Assembly: GCF_016097555.1 (NCBI RefSeq) | Contig: NC_054702.1 | Location: 77,807,997-77,871,996, forward strand | Direction: 5' to 3' | Length of the DNA: 64,000 nucleotides | Origin: Gigantopelta aegis | Taxonomy: Eukaryota > Mollusca > Gastropoda > Neomphalida > Peltospiridae | Shown: one piece after another, positions 11,785 to 63,856 of the stretch | Layout of the letters: each line of letters begins with the position of its first letter | Numbering within the stretch: the first letter of the stretch is position 1 | Program-made: the position numbers and the translations under genes | Notes under the pieces: model-generated | What the model was told of the DNA's origin: nothing | Seen by the model: only the letters and a program-made list of their open reading frames with translations | The model's database searches: none

Positions 11785-12490
11785 CACATACACACAGGCA
11801 CACATACACACACAGACACACACGCACAGACACATACACACACACACACACAAAAAACATACAAAACAAACAAAATAATAATTTTTTAAACAAACACACA
11901 CACATACACACACGCATACACACACCAATAATGCACATTGAGTTAAAATTAGGGAACTGTGTAGGGTTCCATCGCACTGTCCAGGGGCATATCTAGACTT
12001 TCGAAATGTGTAGTCAGTTCCGCGTGTAAGAAACGAATTGTTTTGAGAGATGGTGCGAAAAAAACCCACCTCCAAAATGCTCACAATCATATTTCTTAAA
12101 AAGCTTTCTTCTCTATTCTAAAAACAAAGATTCATATTGCAAATTACAGCAATTTGTGGGGTTTTTTTGTTTTTTTCACAAATATTTGTCTTGCTGATTC
12201 TCCTTATTGTCGTCCACCAATGGCAAAAATGTGATTGCATATTTTGAAGAAAAAAAAATTTCGGTTACGAAATTATGGGTTTTTTTACCGATCCAATTGA
12301 TACACTAGTTTAAACGAATGAAACTAATTATTTGTTTTATAATTATTTAAAAAATCATTTCAAGAGAACAAAATACTTTTAAAGTGTAAAACAATATATT
12401 CAAAGATGATACTGGCCCATTAAATTTAATTCACAGGAGATGGCCGAAGTCGACGATTAAAGCTATATCTCCTGTATATTTTTACTATTT
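11252..12490. repeat. Simple-sequence block: A-rich, (GA)n and (CA)n
   Basis: 11,450-11,580 is ACAAACAAAAC-type A-rich sequence. 11,639-11,785 is mostly (GA)n, and 11,790-11,915 is (CA)n with variants. The overlapping open frames in several frames are by-products of the repeats. The remainder to 12,490 is AT-rich with nothing recognised. Confidence 0.85.
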
Positions 12491-12497
12491 AAGTTAA

Positions 12498-12905
12498 AGT
12501 TTGTTTTGTTTAACGACACCACTAGATCACATTGATTAATTAATCATCGGCTAATGGATGTCAAACATTTATTAATTCTGACACGTAGTCATCAGAGGAA
12601 GCCCGCTACATTTTTCCTAATGCAGCAAGGGATCTTTTATATGCTTTCCCACAGACAAGAAAGCACAAACCACGGCATTTGACCAGTTGTTGTGCACTGG
12701 TTAGAACGAGAAAAAACAAATCAGTTGAATGGATCCACCGAAGTGGTTCGATCCTGCGACGCATGCACCTCAAGACTGAAACATTATAAACTGGGGGGTT
12801 ATACCTTACGTATAAACAAAAAACCCATTATATACTAATTTTGAGTACAATCACGTGTTCGCACACTGAAACTCAGGCGAGCGCTCTTCCACTGAGCTAC
12901 GTCCA
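12498..12905 (-). mobile_element. SINE, family B, with extra sequence in the head
   Basis: Tail B (TTTAACGACACCACTAGATC on the plus strand) and core are clear. The head ends at CACTGAGCTACGTCC but has about 100 extra bases (12,770-12,865) between core and head compared with other copies, suggesting an insertion. Confidence 0.7.
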
Positions 12906-13130: not shown

Positions 13131-14653
13131 TACTGAACAAAATAAGAAACTTCCGCTAACTTTGCTTGAACATAACTTGATGAAAACAAACCGGGGAAAT
13201 AATTGTTATATATGCATTTAAAGTGTTCCATGATGCATCGTTTGGTGCAAAAATCATGGCCATAGGTTAACAGAAATTGGGAGAAATTTTGACCAAGTGT
13301 GGTAGGGGTTAAAAAACAACAACACCCACTTAATAACGGGTATGACCACCTCTTGAATTAACCACTGCAGTGCATTGCAGGTGCATAGAATTGACTAAAG
13401 TGTTGATTTCTGCCTGTGGAATATTTTCCCATTCCTGAATGAGCGCTTGACGAAGTTCGTTGGTTGGGACGACGCCTCAATCGTCTGTCCAGACTATCCC
13501 AGACATGCTCTATGATCAGGACTTTTAGCGGGCCAGTCATCAATGAAATCAATGTTATTTGTCCTAAAAAAAATTACAGTGTCTCTAGCTGTATGAGAGG
13601 TGGCATTATCATGCTGAAAAATCGAGATGTTGGCGTTGTTATGGAACAGAGGAATGACGTGATGAGCGAGAATGTCATCGCGGTAACGTTGAGCATTTAA
13701 ATTGCCATCAATGACGACTAGTGGTGAACGAGAACCATGGGCAATGGCTGTCCAGACCATCACAGAACCCCCACCCCCGAAACGATCTCGTTCAAGAACA
13801 CAACAGTCAGCATAGCGTTCATTTCTTCTACGGTAGACGCGCAACCTACCATCACCACGTTGTAAAGAAAATCTGGATTCGTCCGAAAAAAGAATGGTAT
13901 TCCAGCGTCGCCGTATCCAACTAGTGTTTACACGTGCCCAATTAAGACCATTTAGACGATGACGTTGCGTTAAAACGCATCCGACGTAAGGACGTCGTGC
14001 ATGTAAACCGTTCTCCCGCAGACGATTACGAACAGTTTGCCCACTGATTTGGTTATTATGGAGCCCAGGTGTGTTAGCAGCAGTAGCAGTGGCAGTTTGG
14101 AATCGATTGCGCAAATGCGTGTTCATGATATAGCGGTCTTGACCACGCGTTGTAACACGCGGACGTCCACGACGTGGCAAGTCGTTGGTGCTTCCTGTCG
14201 TTCGAAATCTTCGCGTAAGATTTCGTATCGCTCGACTAGAACTCCCAACATGCCTTGCAACGTCTTCTGTCGACATGCCAGCATCAAGCATGCCAATCGC
14301 CCGTTTGCGTAAATTATTGGGTATTCTTGGCATACTAATAATTCTATAATGTAAAAAACGTTACTATGTTTACAAATTTTGAAGCGTTTTCGTTCACTTG
14401 ACAACAATGTCAGTAAGACAAGTAAAACAAATTGACCGAATACTACACGGGACATGTCGAACCATGCATGCACGTGCAAATTGAATTTCACGTTGTCGAC
14501 GATTAACAGTGCAAAAATAATCGATAAAATTCATGAATCCTGATAATACAGCTCAAGGCTAATACTACCTATATAATTTTATTACACAATGAATTCTTTA
14601 ACACAACAAATACTATATGTACAAATCGGAAGTTGGTTTTTTTTTGTTCAGTA
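13131..14653 (-). mobile_element. Tc1-type DNA transposon, broken
   Basis: The ends are inverted (TACTGAACAAAATAAGAAAC on the left; TACTGAACAAAAAAAAACCA as the complement of the right), each flanked by TA (13,129-13,130 and 14,654-14,655), the target of the Tc1/mariner superfamily. The length of 1,523 bases is typical. It carries one transposase gene on the minus strand, which is disrupted near its 3' end. It resembles the element at 43,969-45,465 in protein but has different ends, so the two are separate families. Confidence 0.9.
13330..14333 (-). pseudogene. Tc1-type transposase, frame broken twice
   Basis: From the Met at 14,333 it reads 279 residues: an N-terminal helix-turn-helix (RKRAIGMLDAGMSTEDVA), the GRPR hook between the two DNA-binding subdomains, FSDESRF with the first catalytic Asp, GGSVMVW, and QHDNATSHTAR with the second Asp. 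At about 13,520 a few bases appear lost where SPDLNPIEH is expected (the DNA reads SPDH then a new frame with IEHVWDSLDRRLRRRP), removing continuity to the third catalytic residue. A second slip at about 13,465 precedes a C-terminal stretch ending in VVNSRGGHTRY and a TAA at 13,330-13,332. The enzyme cannot be functional as read. Confidence 0.88.
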
Positions 14654-17396: not shown

Positions 17397-17974
17397 GGAG
17401 TCTTCACGATGTATAACAAAAATAACACGTGTCTCTGGCCTATGATTTATAACTGCTTGATGAGGTATTGCCTTCGAAATGGAAGAAAACAATATCAAAC
17501 TTACTGTTTACATTCATATGTGGTCCTCGCAGATTCACCTCCCTTATCACCTGTATTTTTCCTTCAGTTTAGCATTTAGATTTTTATTTTTTACAAGTTT
17601 CAACATGTTATTACAATATATGTAAACAACAATCTGTCCTCTGAAGCCAGGCATGTGTGCAGGGATTTTAGTGGAGGGGGTCTAGACTGTTGAGAGCGAA
17701 GTTTGGGGGGGGGGGGGGGGGGGTAGAGGTTGAGTCATGCTCTCCCAGATAATATATTGGGAAAAAACCCTGAACTCACCCCATCCCTACACCTATGCCC
17801 AGAGTTAAGACACTATGATTTAACCTGGTTTATCCGTCTACATGGGAATGTAAAAAAAACCTGAACTCGCCCCATCCCTACACCTACACCCAGAGTTAAG
17901 ACACCATGATTTAACCTGGCTTATCCATCTACATGGGAATGTATAAGAGTAGTTATAATTAACACAGGAGAACG
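17397..17974. other. Intergenic with a short direct duplication
   Basis: A stretch of about 65 bases (AACTCACCCCATCCCTACAC, then CAGAGTTAAGACAC) occurs at about 17,770-17,840 and again at 17,862-17,945. An 18-base G run lies at about 17,705. No gene seen. Confidence 0.7.
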
Positions 17975-18270
17975 TTTGTTTTGTTTAATGACACCACTAG
18001 AGCACATTGATTTATTATTCATCAGCTATTGGATGTCAAACATTTGGTAATTTTGACAGTCTTACATTACATTTTTCCATTAGTAGCATGGGTTTTTTTT
18101 TTATATGCACCATCCCACAGATAGGATAGCATATACCAGAGCCTTTGATATACCACTCGTTGTGAACTGGCTGGAAGGAGAAACAGCCCAATGGGTCCAC
18201 CCACGGGAATCGATCCTACACTGACCTCACATCCTGCGAGCACTTTACCGCTGGGCTACATCCCTCCCCT
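17975..18270 (-). mobile_element. SINE, family B, full length
   Basis: Tail B (TTTAATGACACCACTAGAGC), core and tRNA-like head (CTGGGCTACATCCC at its end) on the minus strand. Confidence 0.85.
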
Positions 18271-43804: not shown

Positions 43805-46800
43805 TCACGACCCAACTTTCCACGCTGACAAGATCTTCATAAGAGTTGTCACTTTAAGACCTGTGAGTTGTTTGCACAGTGCTGGTAGTGTCATTGGACC
43901 TGTACAAAACACCACGCAAACAACGACATTAAAAAAATATATATATATTTACATTATGATATAAAATATACTCTTCAAAAAAAGAAACGCAAAAGGGTAC
44001 AAATGGGTTATAACTCCGATTTTATGTTTCCTACCGGTTCATGCTTTGTGAATATAAGGTCATTGCATGTCCCAAACACATTCCCACGGTTACATTCGAT
44101 AAAACGCAGCTACTGTAAAATAAAGTTTCAAAATGTGAATATTCGCAAAAACGCAGCCACGTGCAAACCATGTCACCACTGCACATGCGTTGTCTGCACG
44201 TGCAACATGAACACCGACAGTATAAAAGTGCAGGGTGTTCGCTTGCCTGGCCTCTGTATCTGGCCGACAGTTGACAATCCAGGACATGCCACGTCTCAGT
44301 GAACCGCAGAGAAACAATGCCATCGGCCGACTAGACGCAGGCGAATCCAGAACGGCCGTTGCCAGGGCATTCCATGTGTCCCCAAGCACCATCTCCAGAC
44401 TGTGGGACCGTTACAAGCAACATGGATCAACACGTGACCTCCCTAGATCCGGTCGACCACGGGTCACTACCCCCGGGCAGGACCGCTACATCCGGGTACG
44501 CCACCTTCGGGAACGATTGACTACTGCCACCTCCACAGCTGCAGCAATACCAGGTTTGCGCAGGATATCCGACCAGACCGTACGGAACCGCCTACGTGAG
44601 GTAGGAATTCGTGCCAGACGTCCAGTTCGAGGTGTCATCTTAACACCACAACACCGTCGACTCCGACTGCAGTGGTGCCAGATTCATCGACAATGGCCTC
44701 AACTGCGATGGGAGACAGGTGTGGTTCAGTGACGAGTCCCGATTTCTGCTCCGACGTCATGATGGACGATGTCGCGTGTATAGGCGTCGTGGTGAACGTT
44801 ATGCGGCAAACTGCGTGCAGGAAGTGGACAGATTCGGCGGGGGTAGTGTCATGGTGTGGGCAGCCATCTCACACACTGGCAGAACTGACCTGGTCCACGT
44901 GCAGGGCAACCTGAATGCACAGGGCTACATTGACCAGATCCTCCGGCCACACATCGTTCCAGTTATGGCCAACGCCAACGCAGTGTTCCAACATGACAAC
45001 GCCAGGCCTCACACAGCACGTCTCACAACGGCTTTCCTACAGAACAACAACATTAATGTCCTTCCTTGGCCATCGATATCACCGGATTTGAACCCAATTG
45101 AGCATTTATGGGACGAGTTGGACCGACGCCTCCGACAGCGAAAACCACAGCCCGACCCTGCCCGAGCTGGCAGCAGCCTTGCAGGCCGAGTGGCCCACCA
45201 TCCCCCGGGACGTCATCCGTACTCTGGTTGCTTCAATGGGCAGGCGGTGCCAGGCAGTTGTCAACACACGCGGAGGCCACACCCGGTATTGACTCCAGAT
45301 AACCTTGACCTTGGTGGTGTGTCCTATCACTTACTCACAATGGACTAGAGTGAATTGTGAACAATCCTCCAACATTTGGTAATTATTGGACTCACCATTC
45401 AATAATTAAATCAATTCTCCAAATGTTATGACAATGTGGTTTTGCGTTTCTTCTTTTGAAGAGTATATATGAAAACTCTCTAAAAGCATTGTAGTAAAAT
45501 TTGTAATGATCAAAAATCAATAAAAACCCATGTTAGTCCAATGATGTGCATTTACTATAAAATATTTATATAAATCTCAGTAAAAGGTTAAATGATATTG
45601 AAAGCCTCTTTTACACTATAGGCACTTTGTTACAATGTTGTACTTTTAAGCACCCCTACTCTAAAAAGAAATGTAACAAATCCAGTCACAAAACACTCCC
45701 AATAAGCATGTGTAGAACAAGTTGCCTAGTTATATTATCAGTCTATAAGCACTTTTCCTGTACCCAAAAATACTCTCAAAATGTATATATAAATATTTAA
45801 CACAATATTTTTTATGCATTAAAAACCACCAAATGAGATACAAAATACCTTCAACATGCACCGGGTCCAGGAAGGTGGAGTTAGGGATGTCAAACCAGGA
45901 AAGGAAAGCTGACAAGCATCCTAGTTCTTGTCCCTTCAGAGACTCATTCCGCAAGTATTTCAGAATAATATCTGTGTTCTCTGAAATTATAACAAAAAAA
46001 TAATAAGAAACAAAAAGAAAAAGAAAACAAAGAATCAGAAATTGCTATTAAAAGCATGAAAATATAACCAAATTAAAAAAAGTTTGTTTTATTTAATGAC
46101 AACACTAGAACACATTAATTAATCATCAGCTATTGGATATCAAACATTTGGTAATTCTGACACGTAGTCATCAGAGGAAACCCGATACATTTTTCCTAAT
46201 GCAGCAAGGGATCTTTTATATGCACTTTCCCACAGACAGGAAAGCACATACCACAGCCTTTGACCAGTTGCGGTGCATTGTTTGGAATGAGGTAACCAGC
46301 ATTTCACACAGTTTTAATTATTTAGTTTTGACAGCTTTTTTGCATTTAACATCATGCATAAAATATTATGTACTTATAAACACGTGTATTACAAACAATA
46401 ATGCAGTAGTAGTAAATTGGTATATTGTTAATAATATATTTACTATATGATTATCATTTTACGGCTGCCTGCCATCTATGCCATTTGCTTACTGGTACTA
46501 CTAATATTCAAAACACACCTGCTTAGCAACTAAAATGTGCATACAAATAAATGAACATTCTCTTTACATGAAATACAATTTAGTGTGAATTTCCTATATT
46601 TGAGGCAATCAGTAGAATCATATGTCATAATAATAAAATAACAGTAAATGTCACAGCAGATTACTCATCTGATTTTTAAGTGTATAGGTTAACATATTCA
46701 TCTGGTTCTTATGCAAATTACTGTTCTGACATGCTTGTCTTCGTTAGCTAAAACACAGAAAGTCCACACTTTTATTAGTAAACCGGTATTAGTAAAGTTC

Positions 46801-49800
46801 TCCAAGTCCTAAAAAGGACAACCCACTACTTTCTGAATACTAACCTCAAACTGGCACAAAACTGTTTCCCAGAGATATACTACTTGCAAATCAATCAAGA
46901 CCTCCCTTAGGTTATTCTCAGTAATACAAAATGGTTACCATTTTCAAAATGTATTGATTATAACCCTGAAGGTTGGGTTACAGAATGGTCTTAAATGGTG
47001 ATCCCCATTCAGAATGCATGCAAAGCACCAGCCGAAAATCACATTGTAATTTATGGTTGAATAATACGGGCAATTCTGAACAAAACAGTGGAACACCCAG
47101 AAACATTGTACAGATGATTAAAAATCTATAATTGTGGATAAATGTCGAAGGGTTTTATCTCCGATGTTGTTATACCTGCTTCCCACTTGTCGAGGAGGTT
47201 CTCCACGTGATGCTTCAGGTAGAGCAGGAACTCCAGGTCCAGCAGCTGCTTGGGCTGTTCGTCTCCCAGGCTACAGATGCGGTGGCGCGATCTGTAGTAG
47301 GCCAGCACAAACTTTAGCTGCCACACGCCGGCCGTTTGAATACCACACTCGCATTGCATCATCAGCTGACAGTCGGAGAGAAAACACACCATCCCATCAC
47401 TCACAAACAAAATAAATAGAAAAATTCTGTCTAGGTCATGTAAAAAGTGTAGGTTATTTTTACGTTATTGTATTCAGATGTCTGAAAATACTGTATTTGA
47501 AAACCTAAAATTCAAAACGTTCTTCTGGGAGCATCTGAACCCCTCAATAATAGGTTTGGACCCTCAAATACATGTATTTTCATCTGCAAAGACCATGGAA
47601 GTGACACTATCCCACTCTCACATTAAAATACACTCCACAGGCTCTGACCCATAACATTCAACTGCCATTTTATCAGTTTGCAACCATAAATTAATCACCA
47701 TACAATTTTAAGAAGACAACATTGCTGATAATTTTAAAGCTTTAGTTCTCTTTTCTGCAGGTTTGTTACATATAATTTATGTTCTCTGATAATTTCTCAT
47801 ACTAACCTGCTGCAATACGAAGTGTGAACCAATGGCCCCTGGTTTGTCCTGAGTGATGCACTGATACACAACTGTAGCAAGTTCTCGCAGTGTTGGGCAG
47901 TCCTGGAATTTGTAACAAAATTACATACAAACTGCGAAACAATATAAATACAACAAGCAATGGACATTCCTCTGAATTTCAAAATGTTTCTGTCATAGAA
48001 AACATTTTTGCAATTTCAATGAAGTTAATCTTCATCAAGATTGTTTTAATAATACCAACTAGATTACAACTAGTTCATAAAGAAACTAATAAATAATATT
48101 TTAAAATAGATTTTAAATCCTAAAACTGCAATATAAAAAAAATGCCTTAAACAAAAATATATGTTCCATCCACGTGCATCTCTGACAGTGTAATTTGTCA
48201 TTCAGTTTCATTTAGTAACAAATAAACATCTACCTTGCAAATATTTTGAAGTTACCATATACAAAATACATTTACAATGGAATATTTTATACTAAAATAT
48301 TATTTGATAAAATGTGAAGGTTGGTTAATTGCATATTAAAAATCAGCTTCATTATGGAAGTTCATGTTAAATAAGAATTAAATTTCAACCAATAATATCA
48401 ATAATATCATTAAATTCAAGGTTATGTTGAATGTTGTAGAACTTAATAAAATGAGAGTTCCACTATATCAGGTTATATAACTAGTATAACTATAATACTG
48501 AAATTAGTTTTTCTCATTTCATAAATTCATTGACAGACCAACATATTCTCAGTCAAATACACTAATCAAATACTGGAGGAAAGACAACTGTCAATTACCA
48601 ATTTGTCACCAGATTTCAGGAAGCACTCTGCAAGTGTAATTATACGAGGATCTGAAGCAAAAGCCTTCACAACTTCAGGCTGAAAATAGGAATAATAAAC
48701 AGTTATATCTTTGTATGCAATGAAAATAATATACAATGACTAACTTATGAGTACCTAAATTAAATATTTTGAGACCAAAAATATTGTCTGAATCAGAACT
48801 GACCTTTCCACAATATTAAACTAAAGTATGTAGTGATATGTACCGAGATGGCATAATACTGATGTGCAAATGTAACAGATAAATAATGGAACTTCTAATG
48901 AATCCAGATTAAATAATAACATACCACTGTCATTAATTTAATCTCCAATTACTCTTTTCAAATATAGCAATGTAACATCACACAAGATTATTTAATAATT
49001 AAGCTACCTTGTGTGAGCAGTGACTGATGTGATCTGCAATCAGTGACTTGGCCAACATGCTCCTGTAACCCTGGAAACAAAAGAAAGAACAATTTTATCT
49101 ATTTTCATATAAAAAATATATTATTAAAGACACAATGAACACATTTGCACTGTTGATTTTGCAGGGCTAGCTCTGGCACTCGCCAAGTTCGCCAATTGTG
49201 AATTTCAAAAACAATTGGCAAATTTTATTTTAATTTGGCAAAATAATTTCAAGTAATAATTAAGTTTAACAGATAATTTGGTGAACTTTTCTGCTGACCC
49301 AGAGATAGCCCTGCTTTGGCTATGTGATCAGGATTTAAACTGGCATTTACTAGCTTTGTATCCCAATATCAGCTCCAGAGTGGGTGCATCACTAGGTATA
49401 TTAAAAGCTGTGTCATGTACTATCACATCTGTGGTGGTATAAATACCTCTTGCTGTTCACCCATTAATCGGTTCTCAACAAGCAGCCATGTAGTGTACCC
49501 AGGTTAGTATGCTGACACTTTATGTTAAAAACACAAACATAAGTTGCATGCACTGTTTTTATGTCATTGTACCTGAGGATCCTCCACAAAAGACAAGTGT
49601 CCTGCTCTCTGCTTCACACTCAGTTCTCCATTCTGGTTGAGCAAAGATCTGAAAACACATTTTGTATGACTTAACTCTTAAATCTAGATTTAGAAGCCAT
49701 GTATGGAATTATCATTATACAGTTTTAAAACAAAGGTCTAACTTACAAAGCCTGTTTTTGATTTATACACATGTAACTACATATATTTACACTGCTTAAA

Positions 49801-52800
49801 CACCTGCGTTTAAGAAAAACAGGCTTTGTAAATTCGGCCCCACCTGTTTAGTTTGTACTATATTAAACGAGGTTTTGAGTTTTATTCCTTTATCAAATTT
49901 CACAATTTAGTTTTTATTAATGGATCACAACTTTTTTTTTTTTAATGACACCACTAGAGCACACAGATTTATTAATCTTCAGTTATTGGATGTCAAATAT
50001 TTGGTAATTTCACATATCTTTTATAACATATGCTGAATTTACACCACACTATATTGCTTAAAAGCTTTTCATTAAATACAATATTTATGCATATGATTAA
50101 AATAAATGGTGCTGTAATAAGCATACTAACTTCATGAACAATGATGAAACCAAGCATCTATAAACAGCTGTAGAGCTGTGATGTCAGATATCTAAAGACT
50201 TTTACTTTAATTAATTTTTTTTTATCTCACTGGCTAATAATAAATAAACACTAGACTGTGCTTTACTAAATTCATGGTAATAATAATTAGTTTTAAAACT
50301 GAGTGATAAATTCAACTCACTGAAGAATATTCCAATTTTTCTCAGCATGGAAAACAATCGGCCAATATCTTGGTCCTAGCACCTTTATCTGTTGATTAAA
50401 TAAAAATAAAAAGCAATTTTGGGAAAAAATATATTACCATAAACACTTTAAAAAAAAGTTTGTTTTGTTTAAAAACACCACTAAAGCACATTGATTTATT
50501 AATCATCGGCTACTGGATGTCAAACATTTGGTAATTTTGACATAGTCTTAGAGAGGAAACCAGCTACATTTTTCCATTAGTAGCAAGGGATCTTTTATAT
50601 GCACCATCCCACTGGCAGGAAAGCACATACCACAGCCTTTGATATACCAGTCGTGGTGCACTATTTTTTTTTAGTGAAATTTAGAAGACAATCGGCTCAG
50701 AAATAAATAACTTGTAGTACAAATACCATGATAGTAAGAAAACGGCGCTCCCTATGGGAAGGACTATTGCTTACCAATAGGCAAAGGTTCAGAACACCTA
50801 ATGGGCTGAGTAAATTTAACAATTACAGAGAATTAACAAATAAAAAACAACTGCACATACCTCTTCAATGAGATCCAACTCAGGAAGGATGCAGGGAGCA
50901 ATAGTCTTGTAGTTGCATGTAACATTGCTGTAAATGTTACTGTTCTGAAAACAACATGACATGTCAGTACACCTCAATCAAACAAAGGATACCTACTTTA
51001 AAATTCAATGCTATCATAGTGTAACTGCAATAATTAAACATGAAATGTAAACTAAATTGTGATCACTGGAAAAAAGTAAATAAGTTACAGTAATTTTACC
51101 AAAACGATGTGAATAAAACAAATGCCTTCAAAAGACACCAGAAACATTCTTAGTTGTCGTGACGAGAATTTTGAAAAATAGAAATAAAAAAGAAAAGAAA
51201 ATGCCTTAAAAAGATTAATTTTGCTGGTGTTGGATCACCTAGTTGTGAATGCCTCAGCTTATTAATTCACCCCCATATTTTAAATATTAAACTATCGAAT
51301 ACAATAAAGAGCCCAGTTTTGACGGTCTGGTCATGATTAACAACCCAACAATAAAAAAAACCCCAAAATGAATTCACCTTAAATCTGATTTCCAGTGGAA
51401 CGTAGCAAGGTTTGCCAGAGTCAACATCTCGGGGAAGGACCACGCGAGGCTCGGCTGCAAGAACATACAAGTGTCGGAATGCTTGTAGGTGGTACCTGGA
51501 ATACAGTAAATCAGAGTTATCTGTACTCAGTGTCGGAATGCTTGCAGGTGGTACCTGGAATGTAGGAAATCAGTTATTTGTATTCATTACTAATAACAAT
51601 CACATTAGTAGAACACACAAGTGTCAGAATGCTTGCAGGTGGTACCTCGAATGTAGAAAATCACAGTTATTTTTATTCCTTTACTAATAAGTCACGTCAG
51701 TAGAATATAAAAGTGTCAGAATGCTTACAGGTGGTACCTGGAATGTGGGAAATCAGAGTTATTTTTATTCCTTACCAATAACAAGTTTGTTTTGTTTAAC
51801 GTCACCATTAGAGCACATTGATTAATTAATCATTGGCTACTGGATGTCAAACATTTGGTAATTCTGACATGTAAACATCAGAGGAAACTCGCTACATTTG
51901 TCCTAATGCAGCAAGGGATCTTTTATATGCACCATCCCAGACAGGACAGCACATAGCACATACCACGACCAGTGTACTGGCTGGACCGAGAGTTAGCCCA
52001 ATGGGCCCACTTATGGAGATCGATCCCAGATCGATCAAGCACTTTACCACTGGGCTACATACCGCTCCTTCTTACCAATAACAGTCACATCAGTATAGTA
52101 GAGCAGTTTACATTTATTTTCTGTATTTTATGCTAACATGATTTATTTTGCTATTTATAATATTGTACAAAGCACTCATCTACAAAAGACACTTCAAGTA
52201 TGGTTTCTAAGAACACAAATCAATATTCTTTACCATACAAATAAGGGAAATAATTAGGTAATAAAACTACAAGCATAATTTTAGCTAATCATAAAAACAA
52301 ATTCCACAGAATTAAATGTCTTGCCATAAATTTATTTGATGTCATTTAAAAGCAAAATTAATTATTAAAATATTGTTTTAAACATGCACCGAGATAAATA
52401 TTCATAGCTGCAACTATAAACCAAGTTTCACTGATCTAGGAGTTACAGTTTGTGAGAAATGGACCAGAATGTCAAAATTTAACATTGACCTAAATGTTAA
52501 AGTATTTCAATTAAAACTTAATATCTATATCTACTGACTCAAAGCGAGATAAAAATGTCTTTTTTTTTTCTCCTATGGATTTTAATACAAGTACCTGTTG
52601 TCATTACTATGAGTGGGATACTTTGGGAAAAATGCACAGATCAAAGCAGCAATGGCTTCTGGTTTGGTGCTCAGAGTGTACCTAAAATAACAAGTAAACC
52701 AAACTTTAAGCAAAAAATACAATTACACTTTTACTAACTTATACAAACCTATATCACAGTGTTTCAATAAACAAGTGTGTGTACATACACACACCCTAGA

Positions 52801-54969
52801 CAGTTAAAATAAGTTATTAATATACATTCGGAATGCATTAAAAACTTTAGTCTTTGTTTTTAAAATCACATAATTATACATTAAGCTGTCACTTTGTGTT
52901 TTGACATTAAGACCCACCTACAACTGAATATGCAACAACTGAGATCTTCAACCATACATAATTTTATGTACTCACCGACCTCCACCCAAGAATAACAAGC
53001 CAGTTGCCATGGCAATCGCCATGTGAGATCCATACACCATGTACGAATACTGGGGTCCAATTCTCTTACGCAGCATTCGACACATTCTTAGCACTTCTAG
53101 GTTACCTGATCCAGCCATCACCTTTACAAAGAGATAAACAACTATTGCATCATCTCAACTGTCCATGGCACGATTCACAAGGTATAATATTTTATATACA
53201 AAGACTGTCTCATTCTCATTTTGTCTGTATACCAAAAACAATTATTCAAAACCAGCTGAAATAATTATGGAATATAGTGATAGAAAATAAATAAGTTAAT
53301 ACCCTCTTGTTTCTTAAGTCGATGTATTCAAGTTGCACATACCAATGAGTTTAACAAACTTTCTATTGTTATACAATTTTTATTGGATGACGTCGCTTAT
53401 TCTAGACATCACTAATCAAATGGATCATTTCATGGACAAAACAAACCTATTTTTGTGTATTTCAAAATGTATGAGATATGTTATTAGTACTCACTTTTTT
53501 CCTTTTTTTAAATTTTGAATTGATGAATGTCTCCAATTTAGTATAAAATTGGTTACCAAATAAATTTAATACAATTTGTGACCATTGATATCAAGAAATT
53601 GATAAGAGCAATTCTAATTCGTATTAACCTACCATGGCAACTGAGGTGAGAATCACATTCACACAATTCTCTATTGTGCTCTTCCCAGTCTGTTCAGAGA
53701 AGCTTGAAGTGGACAGAATCAGAAACAACCTCTTCAAACAATCCATCTACAAAATAAAACATCTGTTTATAGTAATCATAAGAAACATCAAAACATTATT
53801 TAAAAAAGAACTAAACTGAGGCTATATGTACTAGATATTAGTTATAATAAACAAGTGCATCAGCAATGTTAATGCCTAAAGAAGATTAAATTCCTTGAAA
53901 CAAAGGCTAAGTTAGTTCACTAAAATTTAAGCAATAAATTCATTAAATTAAGATAATTTATGAAACTATAATCATGACAGATTCACAGATTAACAGGCAA
54001 ATGTGTAAGTTCATATTTTTATAGTTTAAAAGTTAAAAACACAAATCACTCCATGATAACACAAGTTTGTAAGTGAAAATCAAGCAGTAAACTTTGACCA
54101 ATGCTGAAAATAGTTTTTTTTTTTTTTTTACTAGAGGACAAAGGGAGACAATTATAACAAATATTCAAATGGAAGTATAGTTTAAAAAGGTTTTTAATTT
54201 AAAAAAATAAATGTACCAGAGTATTGAATGCTGCTTCGTTTGCTGAACCTGCAAACTTGAGACCCATCGTCATGCACGCTCCAGCTACTATGTTACTGTA
54301 TGCCTGACTGAAAACCAACATTATATACTATCAATTAGACATAAGTAACAAAACCCTCAAAAACACAATTATAAATATTACACAGTACACAAACTAGTTT
54401 AGGATAAATCAAACACTAGAATCTAAATTATTTTATGCATAATAATGATGATGTCACATTTAGTACAAAGTCATAAGTCTGTAAGCACAAAATCATCCAA
54501 TAATATTGCATATTACACCAATGCATGTTCATTTCTCAAAGAAATTTTAACTGTTATTACCCCTGTTATAAGTGCCACCAGTGGTAATAAAAAACAAATT
54601 CCCCCAACAAGATTTCTCTTTGCCTACACATATACATTAATACTGGTATAAGTACTCTTGAGATTATGTGAAAACTGTAGAATGTAAGTGACTGATGATT
54701 CATGCAGTCTGACTATAGCTAGCTGAGATATTTATTACCTCATGGTTTCATAGTCAATAACTGTATCATCGTCTTCCTCCAGCACTCCCTTCTTGAACGC
54801 ATACTTTTTCACAATCTAAAAGTACAAGTAAACATTAAAACAATTATGTTCATACTGAATGCAGATACATATCCATATGTTGAAATGATATGACAAACAA
54901 TATTCAGATAAATAAGAAATTTTAGCTCTTTAAATTTAACAAGACAAAGCCAAACAGTTTCCCACTTTC

Positions 54970-55052
<83 letters not shown>

Positions 55053-58000
55053 AGACAGAGACAGATGGAGAGACAGACAGAAACAAAATAGCAGTGTAAT
55101 AATCACTTTTAATATGGATTATTGGTAAGGAAATCAATATTCTCATTTTCTTTGCCTTTGAAATGTGTTAAAACTCCAGAAAGTTAAGTGCAGATAAACT
55201 CACATCTGGAATGTTACTGTCAACCCATGGCAAACTGGGCATCACAGACTCCCACAGCACCAGTCCACGACTCAATGTCTAGACAGAAAATAAATACCAC
55301 ATCCTTATACACATCCAATGCAGGCACAACATATAGCAATTAGCAACAAAAGGCATACAATACCAGTATTAAAAATACCACAAATCTCATACATAAATAA
55401 TCTTTTTTTACTAATACTTCACACAAAAGGCCGTATTTATCAAGTCTGTTTATGTCTTACATATGTGTAACTGCATACATTTTACAATGCTTAAACACCT
55501 GCGTGAAAAAAACACTTTGTAAATTCAGCCCTGAATAAATATTTTACTTTTCTTTCTTGTTAATGAATCTCTCTACCATTATTGTAAAATACTATTATTG
55601 GCATTACAAAACAAACTTCAGTAATTCCAGCAGTGGTTATGTAAACAAAATTATGTAATCATGTCACAGGATCTAGTGCTTGAATGAAAGAAAGAAAGAA
55701 AGAGAGAAATGTTTTATTTAACGACGCAAACACATTTTATTTACGGTTATATGGCTTCAGACATATGGTTAAGGACCACACAGATATTGAGAGAGAAACC
55801 CGCTGTCGCCACTTCATGGGCTCTTTTCAATTAGCAGCAAGGGATCTTTTATATGCACCATCCCACAGACAGGATAACACATACCACGGCCTTTGATATA
55901 CCAGTCGTGGTGCACTGGCTAGAGCAGGAACTAGCCCAATGGGCCCACCGACGGGGATCGATCCCACACCGATCGTGCATCAAGTGAGCGCTGTACCACT
56001 GGGTTACGTCCCGCCCTGTGCTTGAATGAAGAACCAGCTTCAGTGGTGTCGTGGTTAAGCCATCGGACATAAGGCTGGTAGGTACAAGGTTCACAGTTCG
56101 GTGCCGGCTCCCACCCAGAGCGAGTTTTAATGAATTAATGGGTAGCAGATCTAAGACCACTACACCCTCTTCTCGCTCACTGACCACTAACAACTAACCC
56201 ACTGTTCTGAACAGACAGCCCAAATAGCTGAGGTGTGTGCCCAGGACAGCATGCTTGAACCTTAACTGGATAGAAGCACGAAAATAAGTTGAAATGAATG
56301 AATTGAATGAAGTAATCCACTTACACCACCACAGACTTTTTTTTTAAGTAACACAGGACACTGTACCAATCTTTGATATATTATCAAGATGTACTGGTGG
56401 AGCTGGGAAACATTGATGGATCCACTGAAGTGCTGCTGAGAGAATTGATCCTAGCACTTTCCACACTTCAAGCAGATGATCCTATACTAGACTATACCCC
56501 TGTCATGGAGCAACAATTTAAACATGTGACCTTAATCGAGACTATATAGCATTAAAACCTATTCTGTTTGAGTACTTAAATAGGTAGGTCTAAGGCCACT
56601 ACACCAACTTCTCTCAAATACATGTAGCTCAGGTGTATGCCCAGGACAGTGTGCTTGAAATTTAAATCAATATAAGCAGTGCTAAGAATGAATGAAAAAT
56701 CCAAACGTTTACCCTCAACATGAGAAAGTCTGGTCTGACATGTTCCAGCATGAACTGTGTGTCTGGAGCCTTCAGCCATTCTGCAACAGCCCTAAAGAAA
56801 GAAACCCACAAGAAATACACTAAAAGGTTTTAAAAAATATCAGATATTAAACAAAATAAATAGAGATTAATGGGTGCATGTGCAGAGGTGGAAGGAGCCT
56901 TGAGGGTCAAACCCACCCTGCTCCATGTGAATTTTCTTGTTTCAACGTATTTTCTGGGAAAGCATGACCACCCCTCCACCCCTTAAAACTTAATAAGCCT
57001 ATAGACTGTCCCATCCTCCTACAAAAATGTCTTAATTTCAGTTCGGTCTGACGTAAAAGGAAAAGTACAAGTGTTTTGGAAATAACAAAAAATTTCTATT
57101 TTTGTGTGCAATTTAGAAAACAATTGGCTTAGAAATAAATAACTTGTAGTAAATTCCATAGTATGAAAAAGGCATTCCCCTTGGGATGGACTATAATTAT
57201 CTCCAGTTTTATATAGTTACCCATTGCCTGTGCTGAAGAACATCATTCCCAGAGCAAGAGTTGCCCCAGGTGCAGTGACATCCACATTGACACAGTTACC
57301 CTCCTGTAATTAAAAACATGTATTAACAACACAAGGAATATATAGCATGTACAGAAGTGACATCCACATTGACAGTTACACTCCTGTAATTAAAAACACA
57401 TGTATTATTAACAACACAAGAAATATATAGTACATTCAGAAGTGACATCCACACTGACACAATTACCCTCCTGTAATTAAAAACATGTATTAACAACACA
57501 AGGAATATATAGCATGTACAGAAGTGACATCCACACCGACAGTTACACTCCTGTAATTAAAAACATGTATTAACAACACAAGGAATATATAGCATGTACA
57601 GAAGTGACATCCACACCGACACAATTACCCTCCTGTAATTAAAAACATGTATTATTAACAACACAAGGAATATATAGTACATTCAGAAGTGACATCCACA
57701 CTGACACAATTACCCTCCTGTAATTAAAAACATGTATTATTAACCACACAAGAAATATATAGTACATTCAGAAGTGACATCCACACTGACACAATTACCC
57801 TCCTGTAATTAAAAACATGTATTATTAACAACACAAGGAATATATAGTACATTCAGAAGTGACATCCACACTGACACAATTACCCTCCTGTAATTAAAAA
57901 CATGTATTATTAACAACACAAGGAATATATAGTACATTCAGAAGTGACATCCACACCGACACAATTACCCTCCTGTAATTAAAAACATGTATTATTAACC

Positions 58001-61000
58001 ACACAAGAAATATATAGTACATTCAGAAGTGACATCCACACCGACACAATTACCCTCCTGTAATTAAAAACATGTATTATTAACAACACAAGGAATATAT
58101 AGTACATTCAGAAGTGACATCCACACCGACACAATTACCCTCCTGTAATTAAAAACATGTATTATTAACAACACAAGGAATATATAGTACATTCAGAAGT
58201 GACATCCACACCGACACAATTACCCTCCTGTAATTAAAAACATGTATTATTAACCACACAAGGAATATATAGTACATTCAGAAGTGACATCCACACCGAC
58301 ACAATTACCCTTCTGTAATTAAAAACATGTATTATTAACCACACAAGAAATATATAGTACATTCAGAAGTGACATCCACACCGACACAATTACCCTCCTG
58401 TAATTAAAAACATGTATTATTAACAACACAAGGAATATATAGTACATTCAGAAGTGACATCCACACCGACACAATTACCCTCCTGTAATTAAAAACATGT
58501 ATTATTAACAACACAAGGAATATATAGTACATTCAGAAGTGACATCCACACTGACACAATTACCCTTCTGTAATTAAAAACATGTATTATTAACAACACA
58601 AGGAATATATAGTACATTCAGAAGTGACATCCACACTGACACAATTACCCTCCTGTAATTAAAAACATGTATTATTAACAACACAAGGAATATATAGTAC
58701 ATTCAGAAGTGACATCCACACCGACACAGTTACCCTCCTGTAATTAAAAACATGTATTATTAACAACACAAGGAATATATAGTACATTCAGAAGTGACAT
58801 CCACACTGACACAATTACCCTCCTGTAATTAAAAACATGTATTATTAACAACACAAGGAATATATAGTACATTCAGAAGTGACATCCACACTGACACAAT
58901 TACCCTTCTGTAATTAAAAACATGTATTATTAACAACACAAGGAATATATAGTACATTCAGAAGTGACATCCACACTGACACAATTACCCTTCTGTAATT
59001 AAAAACATGTATTATTAACAACACAAGGAATATATAGTACATTCAGAAGTGACATCCACACCGACACAATTACCCTCCTGTAATTAAAAACATGTATTAT
59101 TAACCACACAAGAAATATATAGTACATTCAGAAGTGACAGCCACACTGACACAATTACCCTTCTGTAATTAAAAACATGTATTATTAACAACACAAGGAA
59201 TATATAGTACATTCAGAAGTGACATCCACACTGACACAATTACCCTCCTGTAATTAAAAACATGTATTATTAACAACACAAGGAATATGTTGTACATAAA
59301 GACACGCAGGAATGGTTTAACTATAATTTGTCAAATCATCAAACATGAACTGAAGTAAACATGACTAAAAGAATACATTTACCTGAAATGCTTCATTAGG
59401 TCACAATAAATATCTCATTCATGAGCACCCAATCGTTGGAAATACTACTAACATGTTTGTCTGTGTTTCACTCATATAACTCGGCTAACAACAAATTACA
59501 ACCCTACTGCTTTTGAAAATATATTCCATCACTTCCACATAAATAGTACACTTTTTATGAAAACAATTTGTGACAGGAAAAATACACTAAGATTATAACA
59601 TTGATTGAAAACTGGGCCCCATGACTGAATCTTTTCAGGTAAAACAATAATTATGACAAACTCTACCATAACAGTTTGGAAATGGCTGTCAGTTATTACT
59701 TGTTTAATTTGTGTTTAAAAAAGAATCAACATATTATTTATTTTTTCATTCCTGTAATTCCTTTTGTCTGATCTCTAGAACGTTTGCCTTTCCACCACAT
59801 TTTTACTGTTACACATATAAAAGGAAATAGTAAAAGGATATCTAGTTACTGACCTTATTCAGATAGCTTGGTGCTTTGCATCTCTCTTTGAACAAGTTGG
59901 GCTGCAAAAATAATATATTTAGTCAGATTCCTGAACATGAAATAGATGTTAAAAATTATCCATTTTTGAATATTTTTATGTGTTGTTATTTATCATAGCC
60001 TTTTAAAGACAGACCAGAATGTATGATACATATGTAAATACCAAGGGAATCAACATTAATTTTTTTTTCACAAGCTTTGCCAAGCAAGGCCCATAACCTT
60101 TATATAAAAGTGATCAATAATTTAACATGTTTATTGCAGAAGATCAGATTGACTGAAACATATTATTTATTTGAAAGCCTTAACTGGAAATATTAGAAAT
60201 AACTGCGTAACAAAATTATAGCCTCCCAACGCTGATTGAAATTTCATAAATTTTAATAAATTTTCAGATCTGAGCTGTGATTAGTTAAAATGTGGATCTA
60301 CAAAACAGTGAACTGACCAGTGGTCTCCTGTGTCCTCCAACCATAAAATGACACAGAGTGTCTGCCATGCTGTGATCCGAGAGGCCAATCACCTGCTTTC
60401 CTTTCTGAAAATAAACAAATACACTTCTGCCATAACTGACTGTAAGAAGACAAAAAAACACAGCAATCTTAAATGATGATGACTTTTAAGAACCTAACAG
60501 AATGAGTGTTTAACTAGTTCTCATAATACACCGACCAGAAGCTATGACCAAAAGAACCATAGTAACTCTTCCATCATCAAAGTAGAACACAAAGGAAAGA
60601 ACATAACTGATAACAGTACTTATAGCTGTTCTGTAAATGGCATATGGGAGAAAAGGATGTTACAGGAAATAAATTCTATATGAACCAAATACCTTATATG
60701 TGATTATATTGTATAAGATTGACCAAATTAGCAGAAATTTCTTCTTTTAATAATGCTCAACAGCCATAGTGTGAAAATAATGTGATCTGCAATTACCCCA
60801 AACATGATAAGTCCTAACGCCAAACCAGCAGCAAGAGCATACGATTCCCGGTCTGTACAGTTCTCCATTTCTGGACCTGGCAGTCGACCTTAAGTACAGA
60901 AAACAATTCAGATGCTACAGCATGTTCCAAAAACAGCACAAACACTAAAAATATGTAAAACGGCTAAGTATGTGATCACATTTGCTAACTACATTAAATG

Positions 61001-62956
61001 TGCTTTGCAAAAGCTGCTCACCCTATTAATCAGAGGTAATTAACTTATTAGGTTTGCATAAAATTAATTTTGAGGTACTACAAACACCAGGACAACCAGA
61101 AACATGTATTTGAAAAAAAGTAACAATCATTCTGAGAGTACTGCTATATCGAACCAACATATGTTTTAATCTCCTAAGTTCATGGGCCATAACTCTGTTA
61201 CAAATGGGCAAATCATGAAAGTCAAACTTAATCTGCAACTCTACATGATAAAGCTATACACAATATTTCAGCTCAACATCTTAAAGCATTGCAAATTAAA
61301 AACAAATCCAGAAAACTGCATATGGGACAGACAGACAGTCACTCAGACAGATGGAAACAAAGCCTTGGTGAACTAATAGTGGACTAATAATTTAAGCAAT
61401 AAATTATATGTAATTTGTAAGTTGACAGTAAAAAAGCAGTAATATTTTACACAACCTAATAATGGGATAATTAGCTTTAAGTTTACCGATACTCCTATAA
61501 ATGAGTACAACAGACCTATTTCAGCTAACAGTGTTTCTGCCATGTGTAGATGTCCCGTGCCATAGTAGACCAAGCCAACACCGAGTATAGCTGCTGCCTG
61601 GACGTTGTGGTGGATGTTCAGCTCGGTTGAGGTCGGGGGCAGCAGGGCCAAGACGTGAATACTCAAAACACGGGTCAAGGCCATGTCCATGGTTCCACGT
61701 CTGCAATCAAACACACACACATCAAATAATGATTACTTTTAGATTTGGAAGAGTCAAACCTGCTCAAGCTGTCATCCATTTTAAACCACCCTCAAGTTGT
61801 TGTTACCTTCAGCCATCTAACATAATGCTAAGCAAGCAACTCTCTTACCAGTTATCAGACCACTCAGGTCTTCTTAACAAAATGAGTGCGTCAGTAAATA
61901 AAACATTTCCTTCTTAACAAAATATTTCAAAGTTTAATTATATTGTCAAAGTTTAAACCCAACATACTGTACATTTACAGTGCCATATAAACTTCGAACA
62001 TTTGCTCTCACTTTAAACTGATATGTTAATTATTAGGAAGTTAAAATACACTTACTTTGCAGCTGAAAGACCCAACAAAATCCCTATGGTGGTCATCTCA
62101 TGGCCCTGTAATAAAGAAAAATTAATCATCCAGATGCTAAACCCAAACAAAATAATGCAAAACAGACCTAGCCATCAAATAAACTGAGAGGAGTGATTAA
62201 TTGCTCCCCTACCGTAAATTATGTGGAGCCACTTAAAATATTACCATATTAAGACCATATAAATTCACATGCTATAAGGGGAGCTAAAAATGACTCACCT
62301 TGAACTGGTCTCAGAGGAGTGATGAGGAGTGATGAGGAGTGACAGTGCTAGCTCTGCTTAAAAGGTGGGGTCTGGCAAAAACACAGGAGATATTTTAAAG
62401 GGACATACCCTAGTTTCAACCCGTAAAAAATTAACACTAAGTTTAGTTAATCTACAAATCTGTAGCACATTTGGATAAAGTTACAATTGAGTGAAACATT
62501 AGTCTGTGACTTTGAAATGGAGAAATACCCTCTAAAAATAGATTAAAACTCGACTCCATAACTGTTACTTCTCAGACGCACGTGCATTTTTAAAAATATG
62601 AGAAATGCATTTTGTGATATTAAAAACGCCAGGATGACCAAAAACACTTTGAATGTACGGAAATTGATAATATAAACAATAAAATCTAAGTAAAGTATGA
62701 TTTAAGTTATCAAAAACAGTTATAATAGTAAAAAATATGCGTTAATGTTTAAAAACTAGGGTATGTCCCTTTAATCATATTTTATTTTGAGTACGACAAC
62801 TGCACTTACTTTGCTGAGGTAGTCATGCACATTGAAAATGGTGAGCTTGGTGAGGTGTCCGTTAAGGCCGAGAGCCATCAGAAATCCTGAATACTCATTC
62901 ACCGCAGCAGCTTCGTTAAGCTTGGGCTTGTTATACATAATCCATGTCGAATCAAA
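43805..62956 (-). CDS. ANAPC1: Anaphase-promoting complex subunit 1, C-terminal part, 24 exons (5' end outside window)
   Basis: APC1 is the largest scaffold of the APC/C ubiquitin ligase, which triggers anaphase and mitotic exit in the nucleus and cytoplasm. Minus-strand exons 1-24: 62810-62956, 62056-62105, 61516-61700, 60797-60888, 60318-60404, 59854-59901, 57221-57303, 56713-56791, 55204-55278, 54739-54815, 54217-54307, 53633-53746, 52976-53121, 52595-52681, 51378-51495, 50861-50944, 50321-50388, 49573-49648, 49008-49070, 48599-48679, 47807-47902, 47176-47365, 45849-45980, 43805-43899. All keep frame and give 787 residues. Landmarks shared with vertebrate APC1 are WIMYNKPK, NEYSGFLMALGLNGHL, LPPTSTEL, GLALGL, VMAGSGNL, LYVLAAEPR and a short C-terminal exon (GLKVTTLMKIL). 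The alternating small-residue/hydrophobic stretches are the PC repeats that form APC1's toroid. Donors after exons 3, 5 and 6 are GTCTGT or GTCAGT, weaker than usual. Introns 6 and 14 (window numbering) carry tandem copies of their own acceptors. A Tc1 transposon sits antisense in the last intron. Confidence 0.95.
43969..45465 (+). mobile_element. Tc1-type DNA transposon in the last ANAPC1 intron
   Basis: Inverted ends TACTCTTCAAAAAAAGAAAC on the left, and GTTTCTTCTTTTGAAGAGTA on the right, flanked by TA (43,967-43,968; 45,466-45,467). It is 1,497 bases and carries one transposase gene in its own sense, antisense to ANAPC1. It lies between ANAPC1 exons 23 and 24, only about 70 bases upstream of the exon 24 acceptor. 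Confidence 0.92.
44286..45292 (+). pseudogene. Tc1-type (DD34E) transposase, two frameshifts
   Basis: From the Met at 44,286 the frame has a helix-turn-helix (AIGRLDAGESRTAVARAF), a GRPR hook and a second DNA-binding subdomain. It then slips by one base at about 44,715-44,722, just before FSDESRF with the first catalytic Asp. The second frame continues through GGGSVMVWAAI and QHDNARPH (second Asp) to DLNPIEHLWDELDRR. From the second Asp to the Glu of PIEH there are 34 residues, so it is DD34E, the Tc1 pattern. A second slip at about 45,140-45,165 restores the C-terminus (LPELAAALQAEW to GGHTRY, stop at 45,290-45,292). All catalytic residues remain but in different frames. An earlier in-frame Met at 44,235 is less likely because the family starts at MPRLS. 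Confidence 0.88.
46081..46300 (-). mobile_element. SINE, family B, head missing (ANAPC1 intron)
   Basis: Tail B (TTTAATGACAACACTAGAAC) and core ending at GCATTGTTTGGAATGAG. Confidence 0.75.
49162..49313. mobile_element. Short MITE with CAGGGCTAGCTCTGG ends (ANAPC1 intron)
   Basis: CAGGGCTAGCTCTGG is answered by CCAGAGATAGCCCTG at the right end (152 bases). CAGGG-type ends suggest the hAT superfamily, but I could not see a clean 8-base target duplication. The interior repeats CAATTGnnAAATT words. Confidence 0.65.
49738..49841. mobile_element. Short MITE, GGGCC-ATTTAC type (ANAPC1 intron)
   Basis: ACAAAGCCTGTTTTT is mirrored by AAAAACAGGCTTTGTAAATT with GGGGCCGAA beyond. It shares its interior (ACATGTAACTACAT; TGCTTAAACACCTGCG) with 55,429-55,531. 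Confidence 0.7.
49930..50015 (-). mobile_element. SINE family B tail fragment (ANAPC1 intron)
   Basis: AATGACACCACTAGAGCACA to ATTTGGTAATTTCACATA; core and head missing. Confidence 0.7.
50455..50664 (-). mobile_element. SINE, family B, head missing (ANAPC1 intron)
   Basis: Tail B and core up to CCAGTCGTGGTGCACTA, where a fragment of an M3 MITE begins. Confidence 0.8.
50665..50764. mobile_element. M3 MITE, right half (ANAPC1 intron)
   Basis: AGAAGACAATCGGCTCAGAA and TAAATAACTTGTAGTA to GGGAAGGAC followed by TA match the right half of 57,004-57,191. Confidence 0.65.
51459..51770 (-). repeat. Tandem copies of the exon 15 splice-acceptor junction (1 real + 3 decoys)
   Basis: The start of ANAPC1 exon 15 and the last intron bases before it (CCAG|GTACCACCTACAAGC on the minus strand) recur at about 51,530-51,570, 51,621-51,660 and 51,713-51,750, spaced 59, 91 and 92 bases. 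Each copy holds about 24-36 exon bases plus 35-55 intron bases. Two of the three copies keep CCAG before the exon part; the middle one reads CGAG. Frames opened by the decoys meet a stop within a few codons (for example YHLQAFRH then TGA). Confidence 0.85.
51783..52075 (-). mobile_element. SINE, family B, full length (ANAPC1 intron)
   Basis: Tail B (GTTTAACGTCACCATTAGAG), core and head (CCACTGGGCTACATACC). It directly follows the exon 15 junction repeats. Confidence 0.85.
54973..55052. repeat. (GA)n microsatellite (ANAPC1 intron)
   Basis: About 38 GA dinucleotides followed by GACAGA variants. Confidence 0.95.
55429..55531. mobile_element. Short MITE, GGGCC-ATTTAC type (ANAPC1 intron)
   Basis: GGCCGTATTTATCAAG on the left, CTTTGTAAATTCAGCC on the right; same family as 49,738-49,841. 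Confidence 0.7.
55683..56018 (-). mobile_element. SINE, family A, full length (ANAPC1 intron)
   Basis: A (GAAA)n run at the tail end, tail A (GTTTTATTTAACGACGCAAA), core, and complete head with GGGGATCGATCCCACACCGA and GGGTTACGTCCCGCCC. Same sense as the gene. Confidence 0.9.
56030..56312 (+). mobile_element. SINE, family C, full length (ANAPC1 intron)
   Basis: Head CAGTGGTGTCGTGGTTAAGC and GGTAGGTACAAGGTTCAC, middle GCTCCCACCCAGAGCGAG, tail CTTGAACCTTAACTGGATAG and AGCACGAAAATAAG with a GAATGAATTG run. It starts about ten bases after the head of the family A copy, so the two SINEs lie head to head. Confidence 0.85.
56365..56507 (-). mobile_element. Diverged SINE head fragment (ANAPC1 intron)
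   Basis: CTTTGATATATTATCAAGAT, GGATCCACTGAAGTG and GAATTGATCCTAGCACTT follow the order of core and head of families A/B. Confidence 0.5.
56588..56700 (+). mobile_element. SINE family C tail fragment (ANAPC1 intron)
   Basis: CTAAGGCCACTACACC, AGCTCAGGTGTATGCCCAGG, then a tail ending in GAATGAATG; its right end is 13 bases from exon 8. Confidence 0.7.
57004..57191. mobile_element. TA-flanked MITE, family M3 (ANAPC1 intron 7)
   Basis: GACTGTCCCATCCTCC on the left and GGGATGGAC on the right, with TA on both sides; close to 29,644-29,841. Confidence 0.7.
57275..59290 (-). repeat. 85-base minisatellite built from the exon 7 acceptor junction, about 23 units plus the real one
   Basis: On the minus strand each unit reads intron end (TTGTTAATAATACATG, TTTTTAATTACAG) then GAGGGTAATTGTGTCAGTG and TGGATGTCAC, the first 29 bases of ANAPC1 exon 7 (GAGGGTAACTGTGTCAATG in the real exon). 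Units are 85 bases, nearly identical, with a few of ~80 (missing bases around CACAGTTAC) next to the exon. The array fills about 1,990 of the 2,550 bases of the intron between exons 6 and 7. The real exon copy at 57,275-57,303 is the outermost unit. If a decoy acceptor were used without a donor, the frame would stop after about 20 codons. Confidence 0.93.
62399..62770. mobile_element. TTAA-flanked element related to M1 (ANAPC1 intron 1)
   Basis: The ends AGGGACATACCCTAGTTTC and the complement of CTAGGGTATGTCCCT, with TTAA at 62,395-62,398 and 62,771-62,774. It is 372 bases, half the length of the M1 copies, but shares TTAATCTACAAATCTGTA and the ends. It ends only 40 bases from exon 1 of the window. 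Confidence 0.85.
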
Positions 62957-63856
62957 CTGAAATAGTTGACGAAAAAAAATTAATCAGATACAAACAAAAC
63001 ATTTTGAGTTTGTGCATTCACAGTGATAAGAAAACAGTCGTTTTTGGGGGTAGAATTTATTGCTTTCTTACTAAAAAGTGCATTCTCAAATATTTTGTAA
63101 TTTACCCATTTGTAATCTTTACATTTCACAAGATCCCCTCCCAACCGATACATCAAAGGCTGTGCGAAAGAATAGTTTAGGTCATTATAAAACTTTTAGA
63201 CTGCCCCTTGATTAGCAAAAATAAATCCAGTTTATGTTTGTACTTATATCCACTTAACCTTCTTACTGCAGGTGAGATATCTCGCCCGACGTCACGCCAG
63301 TCGACATACTGTACACTGTATATAGTACATTCCTCAATGGATATTTCCTGCCGTTTTGCACATAACACTCACCAGAAAAAATTAGATAACAGAAAACGAA
63401 AGACAACTCAGCTTCCTGTATCTTTAGATTTAGGGGCACGTCACAGTCATTTTCAAGGATTGATTGTGACAGCTAATTTGATAATAAATTTGATCGTTTT
63501 ACCAACAACAAGTCACCAAATATTGGATATGAACTGTAGTTCGTTTTTTTTTTTTAAATTCTGGTCAGAAAACCACTGTTATTGGGAATAATGGACATAA
63601 ATACTAACACAGCTGGCCACAACTGCCCGTAAGTAAACGCAACTTTTTAGATTTTTTGCCTAAATTTAAGCAACATTAACTCATCTAAAATATGATAAAA
63701 ATTAGAAAAACCCATGAAAATAATACTTACCGATTCAAATATGAACTTTATTTTATGTATTTCTAAAACATTTATGTGAATATATGTGAGTAAAAATTAT
63801 AAACTTGTACCCACTCAACATAGTTTTTGTCAAAAATTAATCAAGTAGTCTAAAGG
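62957..63856. other. ANAPC1 intron upstream of exon 1 of the window
   Basis: I searched the minus strand for the preceding ANAPC1 exon and found none; nothing else is recognised. Confidence 0.5.

Follow-up and report, generated by a model that had tools for sequence, protein, structure and literature searches.

How a spliceosome would settle on one acceptor among two dozen nearly equivalent ones is the question raised by a 64,000-nucleotide stretch of the gastropod Gigantopelta aegis (contig NC_054702.1; the whole stretch is hereafter the window, numbered from its first letter). In this stretch, the intron preceding one exon of the core cell-cycle gene ANAPC1 is largely filled by a tandem array (array 1), each unit of which repeats the end of the intron together with the start of the exon. 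An earlier note on this DNA had described a minisatellite made of the gene's own splice acceptor, and the present analysis bears that description out: Tandem Repeats Finder (TRF) reports a period of 85, 23.9 copies and 95% matches, and cutting the array at TTTTTAATTACAG yields 24 acceptors, namely 23 decoys and the true one. Array 1 is probably a boundary-spanning minisatellite of the kind named mirage in amphioxus, tolerated since splicing would pick the copy that adjoins the exon body and its donor.

Array 1 and its gene

The exons modelled in the window join into a 690-codon open partial frame, which is continuous through the introns of both array 1 and a smaller array described below, and whose product is collinear with human APC1 over residues 1218-1905 (phmmer, E about 3e-207). 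All ANAPC1 exon ends are predictions from homology and reading frame, and one small exon (54815-54739) was chosen by hand among six candidates. Modelled exons measure 48-190 nt. Intron 4, which houses array 1, measures about 600 nt once the array is subtracted, the median intron of the gene being 471. Upstream of exon E1, 22 of the 26 minus-strand tblastn rows obtained from the window plus 50 kb next to it were kept, reaching about position 90308 in window numbering; those left out were E1 itself, one array copy and two out-of-order hits. Ten of these 22 matches are weak and 12 lie below E 0.001. Exon E5, which follows the array, ranks about 27th among the coding exons of the partial model, or 17th or later if matches with E < 0.001 alone are counted; the earlier note had the gene right and its number, exon 7, wrong.

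The standard unit of array 1 comprises 55 intron bases and 30 exon bases and spans the predicted splice boundary. The 85-base unit first proposed stands, with its division corrected from 56 and 29. Spacings between acceptors are exactly 85 in 19 of 23 cases, and the four closest to the exon are 82, 80, 87 and 80. The acceptor core is intact in all 24 acceptors, and every one of the 23 decoys keeps its AG. Scored with a position weight matrix built from the other acceptors of the gene, decoys range from 8.57 to 11.93 and the true E5 site reaches 8.66 (the 21 real ANAPC1 acceptors span -2.71 to 12.98 when each is left out in turn), in agreement with the view that the decoys are near-perfect acceptors. 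The features of the locus are collected in Table 1.

Table 1. Features of ANAPC1 and its boundary arrays, in window numbering (a slash marks the predicted splice boundary)
Feature	Position	Strand	Details
ANAPC1, part modelled within the window	45849..61700	-	21 exons, 690 codons, no stop
Further ANAPC1 exon matches	62055-62114; 62810-62959; more beyond the window	-	tblastn
Exon E4	59854..59901	-	donor AAG/GTCAGT faces 24 acceptors
Intron 4 of the gene model	57304..59853	-	2550 nt
Array 1, about 24 tandem units before exon E5	57274..59297	-	TRF and splitting at the acceptor
23 decoy acceptors of array 1	57383..59247	-	first exon-like bases 59247, 59162 ... 57470, 57383; all keep TTTTTAATTACAG
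True exon E5 (83 nt)	57221..57303	-	acceptor TTAATTACAG/GAG, donor TGG/GTAACT
Array 2, three decoys before exon E12	51529..51781	-	TRF; first exon-like bases 51737, 51645, 51554
True exon E12 (118 nt)	51378..51495	-	gene model
Donor array, outside the window	74608-74780	-	exon end and GTAAGT, then two copies

Variation among the units follows position in the array. Decoys are indeed more alike mutually than they are to the exon, mean identity among decoys 2-23 being 95.4% as against 88.5% with the exon unit. The accompanying proposal of homogenisation sparing only the coding copy is unsupported as stated: identity with the exon unit reaches 93.9% in decoy 21 and 97.6% in decoy 22, and the intron part of the exon's own unit has private variants in common with these two decoys. 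The tetranucleotide AATG, once thought to be retained by the exon only, also occurs in decoy 23, the closest to the exon (first base 57383), which yet shows only 85.1% identity overall; on the exon side, the decoys read AGTG in 11/23, GGTG in 11/23 and AATG in 1/23. Units 21-23 look like the usual edge of an array, something also described for the mirages of amphioxus. Judging from these patterns, the contrast in array 1 would mostly oppose array core and array edge, more than exon and decoys: a uniform core gives way, on the exon side, to an edge with odd and older variants. A genome search with the array 1 unit (1,149,253,464 bases in 5216 contigs) returned 25 matches, all inside array 1, a result that does not by itself prove rarity.

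Splicing across the array

Should a decoy be used and everything downstream be kept, the predicted transcript meets a premature stop in all 23 cases of array 1, 20 codons past the junction for 21 of them, and in all three cases of array 2. Exon bases 31-83 and the donor are present in a single copy. The copied piece stops at exon base 30, so that 22 of the 23 decoys are too distant from this donor for a usual exon length: exons defined by the decoys of array 1 would measure 163-2027 nt, a single one (163 nt) falling within the modelled range and the rest covering 250-2027 nt. In array 2, one of the three decoy-defined exons is within that range (177 nt), the others measuring 268-360 nt.

These properties suggest how the array may have arisen and how it may persist. 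A segment running from 55 bases before the acceptor to exon base 30 would have been duplicated in tandem and expanded to 24 units, probably by unequal exchange or slippage. The array would then be maintained because the transcript can still be spliced, with exon definition favouring the last acceptor, and transcripts that use decoys would be lost through nonsense-mediated decay, a presumed fate of messages carrying the stops found here. By analogy with mirages and with the CBS 844ins68 variant discussed below, both reported to splice regularly, we infer that the last acceptor is chosen over the decoys.

The frame and the exons are accounted for without invoking a new intron, which would be the outcome of the alternative of intron gain by tandem duplication. 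A recursive splice site is an acceptor AG immediately followed by a donor GT. In the decoys, four bases (mostly GAGG or AAGG) separate AG from a donor-like GTAATT, so that this usual definition does not apply, and recursive splicing through this in-unit donor was rejected, as four extra bases would presumably remain after each round.

Boundary arrays in the same gene and in a genome sample

Two other exon boundaries of ANAPC1 bear arrays. Array 2 has spacings of 92, 91 and 59 and a full unit of about 56 nt of intron and 36 nt of exon, and AG is kept in its three decoys. The donor array outside the window shows two copies on inspection, of which one was counted by the boundary test described below. 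The upstream edge of array 2 (51777-51815) adjoins the tail of a dispersed repeat, which is also found at 12488-12524, 17971-18004, 46075-46107 and shortly before exon E14; a 91-bp repeat in two copies at 17762-17943 comes after another copy of the same dispersed repeat. Neither papers nor viral contigs yielded anything for a repeat tail of this genome.

Beyond this gene, boundaries were sampled in loci chosen by two motor families, covering 30 out of 80 matches to myosin-head exons and 20 out of 124 to kinesin; a hit required a copy that extends at least 10 bases to either side of the boundary. Tandem copies were found at 3/77 boundaries of ANAPC1, 6/52 of myosin and 1/38 of kinesin, or 10/167 sampled; the corresponding 6% is the rate in loci selected through two motor families and one gene, and not a genome estimate. 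For the upstream ANAPC1 exons, 35 of 44 boundaries were tested, those placeable by hand. Among 60 myosin exon edges, 8 acceptor edges scoring below 2.5 were dropped and 52 kept, and a copy lay 142 bases upstream of one edge thus excluded, C8:45230847; two kinesin acceptor edges were left out. At two myosin acceptors (C8:71018807 and C4:109847090), long arrays end a few bases before the predicted boundary and went uncounted.

The splice signal often survives in such arrays. AG or GT is kept in at least one copy at 8 of the 10 boundary arrays, and the nine arrays of ANAPC1 and myosin retain the signal in 55/65 copies. One donor array of the sampled loci, with an 80-bp unit, has GT in 8/8 copies; another has GT left in 10 of its 17 copies. 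In the ANAPC1 span (44451 bases), 2998 bases lie in TRF arrays with a period of at least 25; in the myosin loci (194000 bases), 26754 do. Taken together, the sample suggests that similar arrays may stand at a few per cent of the splice boundaries of a genome like this one, and that boundary arrays are ordinary by-products of a genome rich in minisatellites. Very long minisatellites were seen in myosin loci L016, L017, L019, L023 and L027, for instance a period of 58 repeated 42.8 times at L016:823-3204 and a period of 37 repeated 55.9 times at L019:6005-8076.

Comparison with known systems

This kind of array is already known from the mirages of amphioxus, and array 1 is striking in size. In the excerpts of the amphioxus report consulted, units hold an intron end with an exon start (BflGb6) or the end of an exon (BflGb9), splice signals are present in many of them, reverse transcription PCR (RT-PCR) suggests that regular splicing is undisturbed, the margins of the clusters are not homogenised, and the authors propose a model for the gain of introns (PMC3087553); excerpts of a later paper add TnC and PGBD5 to the mirage cases (PMC3902484). 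As far as these excerpts go, array 1 is alike in its boundary-spanning tandem units, in the AG or GT kept in many of them and in a homogenised core with edges that are not (PMC3087553, PMC3902484). It consists of tandem minisatellite-like units with exon and intron in each and with the signal kept in 23/23. In contrast, BflGb6 is described with 6 and 3 units, as compared with the 24 acceptors of array 1, which belongs to another phylum and to a gene with three boundary arrays. Moreover, regular splicing is suggested there by RT-PCR, whereas for array 1 it is a prediction from sequence.

Another relevant system is human CBS, whose 31-bp variable number tandem repeat (VNTR) presumably carries a donor in each of its repeated units. 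This VNTR is described, in excerpts of two papers, as lying at the exon 13/intron 13 boundary, with 16-21 units that differ by single bases (PMC2630376, PMC5188458). It resembles array 1 as a boundary-spanning VNTR with slightly differing units, but is located on the donor side (c.1444_1467+7), whereas the two arrays of the window are on acceptors. In the CBS 844ins68 variant, the intron 7/exon 8 junction is duplicated and two sites compete, the more distal being strongly favoured according to the excerpt seen of PMC2630376; these sites are called donors in that excerpt, whereas the paper's reference list gives Romano et al. 2002 a title that speaks of a 3' splice site. The variant is similar to array 1 in having a duplicated boundary with competing splice sites, and differs in having one extra copy and not a minisatellite.

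A literature search on repeated or duplicated splice acceptors gave no matches, and no boundary array in a mollusc was found reported in a search of which only a small part was aimed at molluscs. What appears to be new is the count of 24 acceptors, the presence of three arrays in one gene, the phylum, and the sample-based view of such arrays as ordinary by-products. Mirages are thereby extended from lancelets to a mollusc, and boundary arrays matter for the annotation of genes, for intron-gain models and for what minisatellites cost. In keeping with a molluscan source, the mollusc-specific haemocyanin domain PF14830 has five matches in the genome (best E 5.8e-33), although all are on the small contigs C2783 and C5121, which may be contaminants; the repeats look molluscan, and amphioxus genomes are about half as large. 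With 24 near-equal acceptors that differ mainly in their distance to the exon body, array 1 constitutes a natural test of spliceosome choice.

Alternative explanations

Several observations count against a passively tolerated array. A donor-like AGG/GTAATT lies four bases past the acceptor in 20/23 decoys, with a score within the range of the real donors of ANAPC1, those of E2 and E17 reading GTAATT. The nearest decoy (57383) has the highest acceptor score of all decoys (11.93) and would give an exon of normal length (163 nt), so that exon definition by itself is not expected to reject it. Among units 2-24, 12 positions vary, 6 in the 30 exon-like positions and 6 in the 55 intron positions, and the last 27 intron positions contain no substitution, although one 3-base deletion and one 2-base insertion occur there. 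The probability of such a substitution-free stretch by chance is 0.007 with 12 variable positions, or 0.026 with 9 events, four clustered changes being taken as one event. It hints, without proving it, that the decoy acceptors may be under constraint. In a rival reading the decoys would be regulatory, a share of the transcripts being spliced to decoys and degraded by nonsense-mediated decay, so that array length sets the amount of APC1 protein. The 23 decoys, all with a real-like acceptor score, a retained AG and a stop, are consistent with this role, and a greater number of boundary VNTR units in human CBS is reported, in the excerpt seen, with lower enzyme activity (PMC5188458). Nevertheless, the 27-position stretch was picked after the fact, the last 14 or 17 positions giving chance values of 0.06-0.18; exchange with a constrained exon copy would likewise keep the decoys clean; and arrays in unrelated genes, including the one with 10/17 signals left, better fit drift. 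We regard regulatory decoys as unlikely, and as slightly less likely still a broader scheme in which minisatellites at splice boundaries persist throughout the genome of this mollusc and the length of the array works as a rheostat: with more decoys, more ANAPC1 transcripts would decay, and rapid array mutation would tune the level of a core cell-cycle gene.

Splice boundaries could instead be preferred birthplaces of minisatellites, for example through a process linked to splicing or transcription. Two similarly built arrays (55+30 and 56+36) in one gene invite this view, and two randomly placed segments both cover an acceptor in only about 1.2% of trials, by a test devised post hoc. The wider sample shows no enrichment: random positions of the same loci have tandem copies in 67/800 (ANAPC1), 129/800 (myosin) and 45/400 (kinesin) cases, and boundaries do not differ significantly from them in any set (p=0.27, 0.56 and 0.16; 10/167 versus 241/2000 overall). 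When any copy within 3 kb is considered, boundaries even fall below random positions (3/77 versus 84/600, p=0.010; 6/52 versus 144/600, p=0.040), all these tests assuming that clustered positions are independent. The sample gives no indication of a boundary preference, and such a preference seems to us highly improbable; within the sampled loci, where minisatellites are dense and hit boundaries no more than other positions, array 1 would have no special tie to splice sites. RNA structure might hide the decoys, each unit folding so as to bury its acceptor, given that the last 14 intron bases have a predicted probability of being unpaired of 0.29-0.41 in units 2-20 versus 0.54 at the true site. 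However, the same stem is predicted at the true acceptor, six unit folds are like those of shuffled sequences (z -0.74 to 0.46), and the unpaired probability is 0.53 in unit 1, 0.49 in unit 21, 0.45 in unit 23 and only 0.28 at array 2's own true acceptor; three further folds gave z values of -1.48 for the true acceptor with its exon, and of -0.78 and 1.82 (array 2). Occlusion of the decoys by RNA was dropped on account of the shuffle-like folds and the shared stem, and we give it marginally less credence than the birthplace idea. Least probable of all, in our judgement, is that array 1 or its copy number is an artefact of assembly. Twenty-four near-identical 85-bp units are difficult for short reads, but their variants are patterned and the spacing becomes irregular towards one end, the 120 Mb contig suggests a long-read assembly, and similar arrays exist at other loci.

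Other features of the window

Scans of the window for tRNA genes and Rfam families (gathering threshold) gave no matches. A 45-bp array of 10.9 copies at 485-970 has minus-strand units with a consensus donor-like CACG/GTAAGTAAGG, once GTAAGTATGG; no associated gene was seen, no search having been made for one. A long intronless reading frame at 9092-11227 (minus strand), with a 24-bp coding repeat at 10030-10241, is one that we take to resemble a TRIM-type RING/B-box protein. The reading frames at 13497-14360 (minus strand) and 44644-45345 (plus strand) presumably resemble transposases of the Tc1/mariner type. Finally, a nearly unbroken poly-C tract of about 133 bases occupies positions 3152-3284.

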